NCBI GenBank assembly: GCA_947589595.1
Contig: CANQBV010000003.1
Location: 1-64,000 of the forward strand
Length of the DNA: 64,000 bases
Source: an uncultured Clostridia bacterium
GTDB taxonomy: Bacteria > Bacillota > Clostridia > Oscillospirales > SIG627
Direction: 5' to 3'
A model generated the notes under the pieces. It did not search any database, was not told the origin of the DNA, and saw only the letters and a list, made by a program, of their open reading frames with translations. Every line of letters begins with the position of its first letter. Position 1 is the stretch's first letter. The position numbers and the translations under genes are program-made. Below are positions 7,341-13,658 of this stretch, piece after piece.

Positions 7341-8138
7341 TTAATTCAAATATCCCAGTGTGCGGGCATAGACGTATAATTCGTGGCGGTAATCCTCCGC
7401 CAAATACGGATCTTTGACCAATTGGCTCAACGTCGTCGCCACCGCCGTGCGATTGATGGTTTTATACTTTTTATTGCTGTCCACCGTGGTATATTTCTCC
7501 ACGATCTCCTGCAAGTAGTCATACGGCGTTTTGCTCGGCGTCAGGCCGGCGCTTTGCGTGTTTTTGCCGCCGGAGCTGCCGGAACTACCGGAGGAGGAAT
7601 TCCTTTGAGACGCGGCCGCCGCCTGTTTTTGCAGTGCCAGCGTTTCCTCCTTGATGCGGTTCTCAAAAGCCCGCTGCGCCTGGGTAGCCTCGTACTCGCG
7701 GTCTTCGTTCAATTGGTCAAGATAGCTTTTCATCAGATCAGACCGGTAAGACGCCAAATCCCGGCTTCTTTTTGTTTCCAATTCCGCGGCAGCGGTCTGC
7801 TTTTGCAGAGCGAGCTTGGATTTTTCACTGCTGTTTTGAACGGACAGCTGCGAAAGTGCGTTTAAAAGAGACGCATTGGAAGAAAGCCTGGCCTGCAGCG
7901 AGGCGCCGGAAGCGGTCAGCCCCTGCGCCGCCAGCTGCTCCAGATTATTGGAAAGCTGGATCCGCGCCTTGGCGCTGGTCTGATTTTTTTGGGCACGATA
8001 GGTTTGATCCGCGCTTTGGATCATACTGTCGTATTGAGCATCGGAAGCGGCGATCATTTTCTGGTATCGATCCCAGATATCTGCGGTGCCGCTTTCCAAC
8101 TGCTCTAAAATTTTGGATGCATAGTCTTTAGTCGCCAT
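7341..8138 (-). CDS. Phage-derived coiled-coil virion/ejection-like protein
   Basis: 265 aa, Gln/Ala-rich coiled coil with Ser/Gly linker; last gene of the phage structural operon; function inferred from position and composition. Confidence 0.5.
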
Positions 8139-8148
8139 TGCTTCTCCT

Positions 8149-9870
8149 TTATGATTTTTTATCCGTGATTTGCCCGGTGAGCATCAGCCTGGAAAGATGC
8201 AGCGGCACGGTTTCCGTATCGGATAGGATCAGCTGCAAAAGCACAAAGCGCCGGGCGCGCACGCGGCGGCTTTGGAAGATTTGCTCCATGGGAGAAGCTT
8301 CGCCTCTCTCCAGCGGCAGCAAAATTTCTTCGCCCTTTTCCCGGTCGGTCAGCCAATTCAGCCCCACGCTTTCCTTCTCTTCCGTCAGGGTGGAAAGCTG
8401 CACCGAATAGAGATTTTTCTCTCTGTCGGAGGCGGAAAAATCAAAACGCTTGGATTTCCAGTACGCCGGAATCGCTTTGCCGTTGTCCGTGTTGCCGCCC
8501 ACCCTGCAGATTTCGTAGTCCGTAATAAAATACAGCTTTGTTCCGATTTCCGCAAAGCCCCGGATCGCGGGCGTTTCGTAGTAGTAAAACACGCCCAGCA
8601 CATAATGGTAAACATACGTTTTGTTCGCAAAGCACAAATACAGCTCCGAAGTTGTCTTGCGATTAAAAAGGACTGCTTTGGAATAATCTTCTTTCACAAG
8701 ACCCTGAGCAATGGGCTCGGAAATGCATTTGGCATTGCGTTCATCGCGTATATTGGTGGAAACCCAGCGGCAAAGGCCGACTGTCGTCAGCGTGCAGGGG
8801 TCGTTTTGCACCAAAACCGCCTGTCCCTCGGGAACACTGCCCAAATCGTCCGACAGCGGATATACCGGGAACGAAGAAATCAGCTTGCCGTTTTCATCCG
8901 TCCGATATTCCAGGTAGGAATAATACGCGTTCTTTTCCGTAAAAATCAGCTGACGGTCATAATGCCGCAGGATCGCAGTGATCGGGCTGCCGTCCCCGAC
9001 CAGCGTATAGCCGGAAGCGGGAAAATAATCCATCCTCGGTTCGCCCTCGATGATTCCGGAATGATAGCGCATTGCCGGATCCTCTTTGGATCCGTACAAA
9101 AACACACGGGTATCGTTAGCGCCGCCGAATTTCATGGCAAAGCGGCAGTTAAGAATCTTCTGAATCGTTTCCTTGTCGGTGTGCGCTTCAAAGATCACTT
9201 CCATTTCTTCGTCAAAATAGCTGACGGGCGCGTGTTCAAACGTAATACACTGGTAAAATTCATTCCAGTAGTAGCTGTCCGCATCCAACACCTTGCCATC
9301 CAGTCGAATCTCATGGATCGTAACCGGATCTGGAATCACCAAATGGTAATTAAAATCCGTTCCGCTCACGACAAAGGTTTCGCGCATTTTGCCGGTCAGC
9401 GCATTGGCCTCCTCATAGAGCGTGCCGCTCCCGTCCGGCGAGGCGGCGATCATGACGGTGGGAATATACGGCTCCAGCCCGGAATAGCTTTCGCCGTCAT
9501 ATTGATAAATCCCCAGCCCGGTGAGCAGATACAGATTTTTTCCGAAAGTAAAAAACCGCACCGATTCTTCTCCCGGTACGTCGCCTTTGATCTCCATGGA
9601 TTCAAAGCCCTCCTCGGACGCCCAAAAATGCTGGCCGGCCACCGCACAAAAGCACGTTTTCTGTCCGATCTTTCCCTGCCAAAACCCACGCAAGGCCCCA
9701 TCAAAATGGCATAGAGCCTGGTATCCGTCCCGCTTTTTCAAGCAATACCCGGGCGTAATTTTAAAATTCAGCATATCCGGGCTTTGTCCGTCCTCCAGCT
9801 CGTCGGCGCCGTCCGTGGAGATCCGCAGCCCCAAAAAGCGATCCAGCTTATAGGTAAATGATTTTGCCAT
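8149..9870 (-). CDS. Phage tail/nozzle-like structural protein (P22 gp10/T7 gp12-like role inferred)
   Basis: 573 aa; N-terminus LDRFLGLRISTDGADELEDGQSPDMLNFKITPGYCLKKRDGYQAL resembles tail tubular/DNA-stabilisation proteins; repeated beta-rich segments. Confidence 0.6.
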   Translation of the reverse strand: MAKSFTYKLDRFLGLRISTDGADELEDGQSPDMLNFKITPGYCLKKRDGYQALCHFDGALRGFWQGKIGQKTCFCAVAGQHFWASEEGFESMEIKGDVPGEESVRFFTFGKNLYLLTGLGIYQYDGESYSGLEPYIPTVMIAASPDGSGTLYEEANALTGKMRETFVVSGTDFNYHLVIPDPVTIHEIRLDGKVLDADSYYWNEFYQCITFEHAPVSYFDEEMEVIFEAHTDKETIQKILNCRFAMKFGGANDTRVFLYGSKEDPAMRYHSGIIEGEPRMDYFPASGYTLVGDGSPITAILRHYDRQLIFTEKNAYYSYLEYRTDENGKLISSFPVYPLSDDLGSVPEGQAVLVQNDPCTLTTVGLCRWVSTNIRDERNAKCISEPIAQGLVKEDYSKAVLFNRKTTSELYLCFANKTYVYHYVLGVFYYYETPAIRGFAEIGTKLYFITDYEICRVGGNTDNGKAIPAYWKSKRFDFSASDREKNLYSVQLSTLTEEKESVGLNWLTDREKGEEILLPLERGEASPMEQIFQSRRVRARRFVLLQLILSDTETVPLHLSRLMLTGQITDKKS

Positions 9871-12054: not shown

Positions 12055-12086
12055 GGTTTCCTCCTTTTTTATTTATTTCAAAAGCA

Positions 12087-13658
12087 TTACGCTTCCGAAC
12101 CTTGAATCATATTCGCCCGGGCCTCCTCTTCGGCACGCCGGACTTCCTGCAGGAGTTCTTCTTTTTTGGTAATATAGCCCTCCGGCAGGCGTTCCAGATA
12201 CTGGGCAAAGCTGATCACTCCCTGAGAAAGCAAACGGTCGAGCGTGGTCACCGTGGCAATTTCGCTCCAGTAAGTAGAAGCGCCGGCGTCCACGTTACAG
12301 GAAAAGAGAATGTTCTCCATTTCCTCCAGCGGCAGGGTATTGCCGAGCAAAGCGCCTTTTTTCCGGTACAGCATCACCCGGGATGAATCGTAATAGCGCA
12401 AAATAAAATCGAGCCAGATCATGCCCAATTGCTCTACCATATGATAAAGCCCGCGGCGCTGCAGATCGAGCGGCACCGAGCTGGATTGCTGCAGAGCAAT
12501 GATCGCGCTGGTATTATCCGGCTGTACATTGCCGAGCGCCGCGTCAGTCGCGCCCATCAATTCCTTGGTAACGGCGAGCGTCATATTGATCACTTCCAGA
12601 AAACCGGTCTGCATACTGCCCGGCTCAATCCGTAAAACGGCGTTTTCCACCGGACCGTTCACCGCCACCGCCTCGCCGATCGCATTGGTCCATTCATCAA
12701 TGAGATTGGCGTTATACATCACCTTGGAGAAGGAAAGATCCATCATATGCTTCATCACCATGGCGAACGCTTTGTTGATATAGAGCTGATTTTCCACCAG
12801 AGCCGTTGCCACCGCCTGCCCGTGATAGGAATTTTTCACGCGTTCCCAGTTCATCATGGCGACCGGGTACAGGCGCAGCCCCGTGTCGCGCTCAGGGCAG
12901 ATCACGGCAGAGCGGCAGCTTTTCCGCAGGTGGACGGTGCCGTTCTTCTTATAAAGAAGGATCACAAACGTGGTTTTGGTGCCGTCCAGTTCTTTTTTGC
13001 CGAAATCTCCGGATTGCTCGCCGGTGTCGTTGTCCGCCACGATCGATTCAATCTCCTCCCGCGTTGCGCCGTTCCGTCTGGCTTCCTCACGCAGCTTTGA
13101 TGTCAATTCTCTCCCTGAGATCAGAATATACGGCTGTTCCTCTACGGACGCGGTATTCACATCCCCGAAAAACACATTGGTGCTGTCAATCAGACTGGTT
13201 ACAAAATCCCCCGTAAAGCCCTGCGCCGTTTTGCGGGTGGGATCCCAATATACATAGGCAAACATATCGCCCGTTACCGCGGCGTCCAAAAGCCCCTCGG
13301 CCAGAAAAAGATCCATTTTGTCTTTTTCAAAGCGGTAGTTCAAAAAGCCGGTCAGCGTCTGGCAAACCTCGTCGATCACGCGGCGCTTTTCTTCGTCGTA
13401 CAGGCAGCTGATGCCGTCGGCGTTGAAATGCAGTGAGATCTTCTGCGAAAGAATCGTGGAAATAAAGAAATTGATTACGCGTTTAAACAAATTAAACACC
13501 GGCGTGGGTAAATTTCCCGCTTCAACGCCGCTCCACTGGTCGCCGCGGTAAAAACGCTCGTTGCGCGCCACCGTGTCGTAAAGACCGATCCTGCGGTTAT
13601 ACTCCTTCCCTTTTTCATACAGATCAAAATCTGCCGTTACGGTTTTTGTGTCTTTCAT
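12087..13658 (-). CDS. Phage portal protein
   Basis: Portal-like pattern (YNRRIGLYDTVARNERFYRGDQWSGVEAGNLPTPVFNLFKRVINFFISTILSQ...; ...QPDNTSAIIALQQSSSVPLDLQRRGLYHMVEQLGMIWLDFI). ATG at 13658 with RBS GGAGGAATT preferred over the GTG at 13730. Confidence 0.85.
   Translation of the reverse strand: MKDTKTVTADFDLYEKGKEYNRRIGLYDTVARNERFYRGDQWSGVEAGNLPTPVFNLFKRVINFFISTILSQKISLHFNADGISCLYDEEKRRVIDEVCQTLTGFLNYRFEKDKMDLFLAEGLLDAAVTGDMFAYVYWDPTRKTAQGFTGDFVTSLIDSTNVFFGDVNTASVEEQPYILISGRELTSKLREEARRNGATREEIESIVADNDTGEQSGDFGKKELDGTKTTFVILLYKKNGTVHLRKSCRSAVICPERDTGLRLYPVAMMNWERVKNSYHGQAVATALVENQLYINKAFAMVMKHMMDLSFSKVMYNANLIDEWTNAIGEAVAVNGPVENAVLRIEPGSMQTGFLEVINMTLAVTKELMGATDAALGNVQPDNTSAIIALQQSSSVPLDLQRRGLYHMVEQLGMIWLDFILRYYDSSRVMLYRKKGALLGNTLPLEEMENILFSCNVDAGASTYWSEIATVTTLDRLLSQGVISFAQYLERLPEGYITKKEELLQEVRRAEEEARANMIQGSEA

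Follow-up and report, generated by a model that had tools for sequence, protein, structure and literature searches.

A candidate podovirus-type gene transfer agent encoded by three operons with a common promoter element in a family of Clostridia

The head-tail cassette

The window, i.e., the whole stretch of DNA that was analyzed, is 64,000 nucleotides long and comes from an uncultured Clostridia bacterium. Positions 7341-13658 hold seven tightly packed genes on the minus strand, flanked by ligA and yitT. An earlier note on this DNA had described them as intact, and this was confirmed, all frames being open. The portal protein (523 aa, 12087..13658; 547 aa from an upstream GTG start) is certain by profile (PF16510 P22_portal, 2.3e-14; phrog_156, 2.5e-29) and of the P22 type. 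The major coat protein (277 aa, 10736..11569) is also certain by profile, but the P22 family proposed for it was rejected: the profiles give the Phage_capsid_4 type (phrog_267, 1.1e-41; PF25209, 9e-14) and no P22 coat match, and among solved structures gp6 in 8e16 is the closest relative (6e-34). The slot between portal and coat is occupied by a scaffold-like protein of 155 aa (11587..12054), which is conserved in the family. Of the "acidic scaffold" named earlier, the acidity stands (pI 4.7), but the profile search with this protein gave no match.

The 573-aa protein (8149..9870) has a profile match to phrog_3287 (1e-9), a family of virion structural proteins. Its AlphaFold model, built with 18 sequences (pLDDT 88, pTM 0.85), was compared with the PDB, and the first 29 matches were all phage tail nozzles (E 3e-18 to 7e-11), including P22 gp10, Sf6 gp8, and T7 gp12. 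By its predicted fold, the protein is a podovirus tail nozzle of the P22/Sf6/T7 type, in line with its first description as long and tail- or nozzle-like. Searching solved structures by sequence with the nozzle and portal returned nothing useful. The 134-aa protein (9888..10292; AlphaFold pLDDT 83) had been called a connector, and its first 15 Foldseek matches in the PDB were indeed all Sf6 gp7 or P22 gp4; because these matches are weak (E 0.2-4), the predicted fold is suggestive only of a head-tail adaptor of this type.

Two products are placed by position. The 148-aa protein between coat and adaptor (10279..10725) lies in a variable slot: it had no homologue there in the other examined genomes of the genus, and in other genera the slot holds a holin or unrelated small proteins. 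It is perhaps a head decoration protein. The 265-aa basic protein (7341..8138) gave no match in the profile search; its place at the end of the cassette is kept in the family and points to a possible internal or ejection protein.

A terminator-like site, found by consensus scan only, lies between the cassette and ligA (7239..7254, minus strand). Another, just upstream of the cassette (13771..13793, minus strand), has a 10-pair stem and a T run and agrees with the earlier statement that yitT has its own terminator; it may insulate the cassette promoter.

The promoter element, lysis, and packaging operons

Before the cassette (13705..13739, minus strand) lies the sequence TGTCATTGCGTGGCAG-N13-TATACT, which fits the element TGTCATTGNNTGKCAG-N13-TATAMT with 0 mismatches. 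The 1.43-Mb assembly was searched for this element with up to 3 mismatches allowed, and exactly three sites were obtained, all perfect and one per operon: the cassette site, a site before a lysis operon (23206..23240, plus strand, 0 mismatches), and a site before the small terminase subunit gene, TerS, on another contig (C14:24118-24152, minus strand). The reversed control of the element gave 1 site in the same genome. Across 22 genomes of the host family, 68 sites were found against 4 for the reversed control, and 35 of the 68 are directly upstream of coat, TerL (large terminase), or tail-fiber genes, where about 0.2 would be expected. Relatives carry the same element upstream of the portal gene and, at its separate locus, of TerS. 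About half of the family sites head other genes, some of them replication genes or genes of unknown kind, and in some relatives the element precedes DnaD/replication-O-like genes. In outgroup loci (829 kb, other families), the element was absent at up to 1 mismatch, and the regions upstream of the outgroup TerS genes had no equally clear common word.

A standard sigma-70 scan of the DNA gave sites not above shuffles, and the cassette promoter was not among them. A shuffle test within the window, with 2 mismatches, was weak (2 sites found, 0.58 expected); what carries the promoter claim is the set of perfect matches in the whole genome together with the comparison of 22 genomes. In the element, direct repeats of TGTCA overlie the -35 region and keep a fixed distance from the -10, a geometry that suggests an activator-dependent promoter. 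The "dedicated promoter" of the earlier note is present at 13705-13739, but it is non-standard and common to three operons. Judged by sequence, the cassette, TerS-TerL, and lysis operons would form one regulon under common control.

The lysis module is tied to the cassette by this promoter, since the third site heads a holin-endolysin operon of phage type that sits inside the window at a distance of 10 kb from the cassette (23270-24925, plus strand). Its genes encode an 82-aa membrane/coiled-coil protein (23270..23518; placed by position and a weak match to the Rz-like spanin family phrog_15533, E 0.018), an SPP1-type holin of 81 aa (23523..23768; PF04688, 1.4e-29; phrog_263, 5e-30), and an endolysin of 386 aa, an N-acetylmuramoyl-L-alanine amidase (23765..24925; PF01510, 4.6e-15; phrog_15001, 2.8e-40).

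The search for an orphan large terminase proposed earlier was successful: TerL occurs once in the window's own genome, on contig C14, separate from the cassette, and in all 22 family genomes. Beside it on C14 lies TerS (phrog_606 terminase small subunit, 1.8e-5; GP3_package, 1.5e-5, below the Pfam cut-off). The first reading, that a terminase is lacking, therefore holds for the genes adjoining the cassette but not for the genome. In all aligned members, TerL keeps intact catalytic ATPase and nuclease motifs, which we take to be the Walker A motif GGxxGGGKS, an acidic Walker B, the coupling motif, and the nuclease aspartates. No integrase, repressor, or replication genes were seen beside the cassette, and no genes for autonomous replication or integration beside the cassette, TerS-TerL, or the lysis operon in this genome; the absence of an integrase was judged by reading the neighbors among the annotated genes.

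Tail-fiber genes and operons of relatives were found via the promoter element, which stands upstream in 11 of 14 places matching the fiber N-terminal domain, the domain model having itself been built from element-headed genes. The window's own assembly, which is 86% complete, yielded no fiber of the relatives' type. The element, having led both to the lysis operon and to the relatives' fibers, could serve as a guide to the complete gene set and to the activator.

Conservation, inheritance, and relatives

The coat gene was found in 21 of the 22 host-family genomes, representing 8 genera, and the sole genome without it is 68% complete; together with the presence of TerL throughout, this means that the genes are not confined to a single strain, one of the outcomes that would have spoken for a recent remnant. 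Coat and TerL are present in one copy per genome in nearly all cases, and a few genomes have a second, more distant TerL-like match (30-50% identity). Frameshifts in relatives had been named as another such outcome, and the frames proved open: an internal stop flagged in two coats would sit at the end of the frame, judging from match lengths compared with the frames. Within the family, the surroundings of the cassette showed no contiguous prophage of this type either. The synteny with ligA and yitT that had been suggested for the family is not kept, the cassette having been relocated between genera, and a lysR gene adjoining it is retained in part of the genus only.

The TerL and rpoB trees had 13 of 15 splits in common; in 500 shuffles of the labels, the number never exceeded 2. 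The corresponding counts were 8/11 for the portal, 8/13 for the tail nozzle, and 6/13 for the coat. Nei-Gojobori dN/dS values are rough because dS approaches saturation in many pairs; TerL, portal, and coat (the last two having been proposed for this check) gave about 0.04-0.2, and the adaptor and nozzle, which evolve fastest, about 0.15-0.55. By these trees and rates and by its near-universal presence, the system is stably inherited by vertical descent and under purifying selection.

The window's family forms one clade of the TerL tree (support 99), sister to a clade of compact clusters (99). In metagenome-assembled genomes of the sister clade, TerS, TerL, portal, scaffold, coat, a small protein, adaptor, nozzle, a coiled-coil protein, and holin follow one another in about 8.5 kb, and no integrase was recognized beside these clusters. 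The neighbors of many of them are presumably lepA or hemW, as assigned from their sequences. The only viral contig inside these TerL clades is itself such a compact cluster. The nearest IMG/VR TerL has 61% identity, compared with 64-74% within the family, and none of the viral contigs and phage records had a closer TerL.

Interpretation and comparison with known systems

Near-universal intact particle genes, divided over three loci and headed by one promoter element, make a new gene transfer agent (GTA) the likely explanation. We consider it probable that these operons encode a vertically inherited, co-regulated podovirus-type GTA or GTA-like particle that would be produced, package host DNA, and transfer it. 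The suggestion made earlier, of domestication as a GTA-like or other particle rather than decay, is well supported by the family-wide conservation, the open frames, and the lack of a contiguous prophage. Somewhat better than even, in our estimate, are the chances of the fuller account: a second, separately domesticated podovirus-type GTA lineage, at least as old as the bacterial family, with a contiguous sister form common in another family of the order, a three-operon regulon with a dedicated promoter element, and, in several genera, a TerS-to-TerL transcript that would run antisense through the host gene thiN. Counted against the GTA reading are the coat tree, which fits rpoB only partly, the failure to find a fiber of the relatives' type in the window's own incomplete assembly, and the roughly one half of the family's element sites that head other genes.

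In the window's own genome, the particle would be made from the head-neck-nozzle operon (7341-13658), the lysis operon (23270-24925), and the packaging operon TerS-TerL on C14. In probably only some of the cells, a putative activator would bind the TGTCA direct repeats that overlie the -35 region and switch on the cassette, lysis, and packaging promoters together. The coat would assemble with portal and scaffold into a small procapsid, into which TerS and TerL would package chromosomal DNA by a headful mechanism; the adaptor and nozzle would then close the head and form a short tail. Holin and amidase would release the particles by cell lysis, and DNA delivery would be the final step. As no replication or integration genes lie beside the operons, the system would be inherited at cell division and not carried by its own particles.

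The main rival is a domesticated particle with another job, which would kill relatives in the manner of PBSX or release DNA-filled or empty capsids that deliver no genes. PBSX, a phage-like particle conserved in a Gram-positive host, provides a precedent, since its DNA is not delivered, and a PBSX-like role was left open by the authors of the Faecalibacterium work for their own particles (PMC12946183). The fastest evolution, in nozzle and adaptor, may also fit parts that face variable targets. The conserved TerS and TerL with intact catalytic motifs, however, argue that DNA packaging is under selection, and the architecture is short-tailed, whereas the known phage-tail bacteriocins derive, to our knowledge, from long tails. 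This rival is given a minor share of the probability. Much less likely still is a self-packaging element, either a phage satellite or a split mobile element, such as a capsid-encoding island with helper functions: the capsid and packaging set is compact, with neither tail fiber nor replication genes nearby, but the three operons lie at separated loci, no integrase was seen beside them when the annotated neighbors were read, inheritance tracks rpoB, and almost every genome has a single copy. A decaying prophage remnant, the least credible reading, agrees with the lack of integrase, repressor, and replication genes next to the cassette and with a portal, coat, and terminase of common phage families, but was rejected on conservation and selection (open frames over 8 genera, low dN/dS, one promoter element on three separated operons).

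Few GTAs are known, mostly from Alphaproteobacteria, and the first podovirus-type report, from 2026, concerns one genus. If the GTA reading is true, GTAs can be an old and ordinary property of whole gut lineages, here family-wide and host-controlled in gut Clostridia. Our findings also suggest that some short gut "viral" contigs may be host-encoded particle genes filed as phages. Most likely, the operons belong to a known kind of system, the podovirus-type GTAs, and form a lineage apart, with a split architecture linked by the promoter element.

Several known systems share parts of this organization. The clusters of the second family (L137-L163) belong to the sister TerL clade, have the same gene set, and come from the same order of bacteria; 57 of the 63 genomes from that family gave a TerL match, some genera having a more distant type. 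They differ in that all genes are contiguous, the holin is another one (PF16079), and the TGTCA element is absent. The Bacillus podoviruses of the genus Pagevirus (Palmer, Page) have the nearest annotated phage portals (31%), a nozzle homologue (363 bits), and the order TerS-TerL-portal-scaffold-coat, but are 40-kb lytic phages with full gene sets. The short-tailed phages P22 and Sf6 share the portal family and the nozzle fold and may share the adaptor fold; their coat family is unrelated by profile, and no replication, integration, or immunity genes were seen beside the operons of the window's genome. RcGTA and CcGTA of Alphaproteobacteria are dispersed, co-regulated, and vertically inherited operons of phage origin. 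The system described here resembles them in this organization (PMC12946183) but would differ in phage ancestry.

The closest parallel is with FpGTA I/II of Faecalibacterium (Borodovich et al. 2026, Nat Commun 17:2046; PMC12946183), the only such system found when the literature was searched under other terms. In FpGTA, one operon of ten ORFs includes TerS, TerL, portal, scaffold, and coat, a second carries fiber, holin, and endolysin, and the 40-nm particles hold about 9 kb of host DNA (PMC12946183), which gives the GTA reading a precedent. Faecalibacterium belongs to the same bacterial order as the window's family. For the comparison, FpGTA was represented by Faecalibacterium genomes recognized by the MAM marker protein, which gave 50-53% matches in one genus only. 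Ten conserved genes lie at the Faecalibacterium TerL locus, and the order TerS-TerL-portal-scaffold-coat-small protein-adaptor-nozzle-(small)-coiled coil is common to both systems when the cassette and TerS-TerL are taken together. A further likeness is that lysis and fiber genes stand apart, in FpGTA in a second operon, and TerL, portal, and nozzle are homologous (hhalign E 4.5e-63, 4e-12, and 6e-8). By profile, coat, scaffold, TerS, adaptor, and coiled-coil protein were not detectably related (hhalign probability for the two coats 0.3%), and the FpGTA TerL branches far away, closer to phages of the HMO-2011 type. The distant TerL clade and the undetectable coat relation make the lineage look separate, and orthology was rejected on the TerL tree and the coat comparison. 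The window's system also differs in having packaging, structure, and lysis at three loci with one promoter element. As far as anatomy tells, it would work like FpGTA, but as a different lineage and not as an FpGTA orthologue.

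Promoter and nozzle gene of the cassette

An inverted repeat, GTCAAGG...CCTTGAC, is located on both sides of the −10 of the cassette promoter (window positions 13681–13722). Neither of this genome's two other promoters with the shared element (TGTCA repeats and a TATAMT −10) showed such a repeat. The related genome G004 encodes the nozzle together with the coiled-coil protein in a single uninterrupted open frame of 829 amino acids (locus L042, 11342–13828), which suggests that the two proteins work together.

Other genes at the shared promoter element and thiN

Some relatives have the shared element in front of genes whose products are either DnaD-like (PF07261) or similar to phage replication O proteins (PF04492) (L253, L259, L261, L267, L271, and L272). 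These proteins have a C-terminal tag like FDPDEFF..A in common, and in one case a DnaC-like gene is located downstream of the promoter-headed gene. In relatives, the element also precedes genes for a DUF4417 protein (L254 and L262), repeat proteins of 1400–1500 amino acids (L263 and L273), and a 197-amino-acid protein (L257), all of which are possible extra particle or adhesion genes.

On the genome's own contig C14, the host gene thiN (thiamine pyrophosphokinase) is placed between TerS and TerL on the opposite strand (L034, 1589–4228). Transcription that starts at the shared promoter would therefore cross thiN in antisense before it reaches TerL. The same placement was noted for further loci (L101–L105, L110, and L117–L119); this arrangement was present in several genera and absent in others.

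Similar clusters in virus records and other families

Clusters of TerL, portal, scaffold, coat, adaptor, and nozzle genes, one per genome and with differing coats, were found in many other families of the order (L174–L185). GTA-like elements may be widespread across this bacterial order. Compact TerL/portal/coat/nozzle clusters also make up short records filed as viruses: L188 (IMG/VR 3300018495_003077), L302 (IMG/VR 3300010163_000410), and L219 (MT836592.1). At least the first two are probably host-encoded particle genes. In the host genus of the published Faecalibacterium gene transfer agent (FpGTA), one genome (G238, contig C8, L169) carries a second, similar TerL-portal-scaffold-coat-nozzle cluster in addition to the FpGTA-like one.
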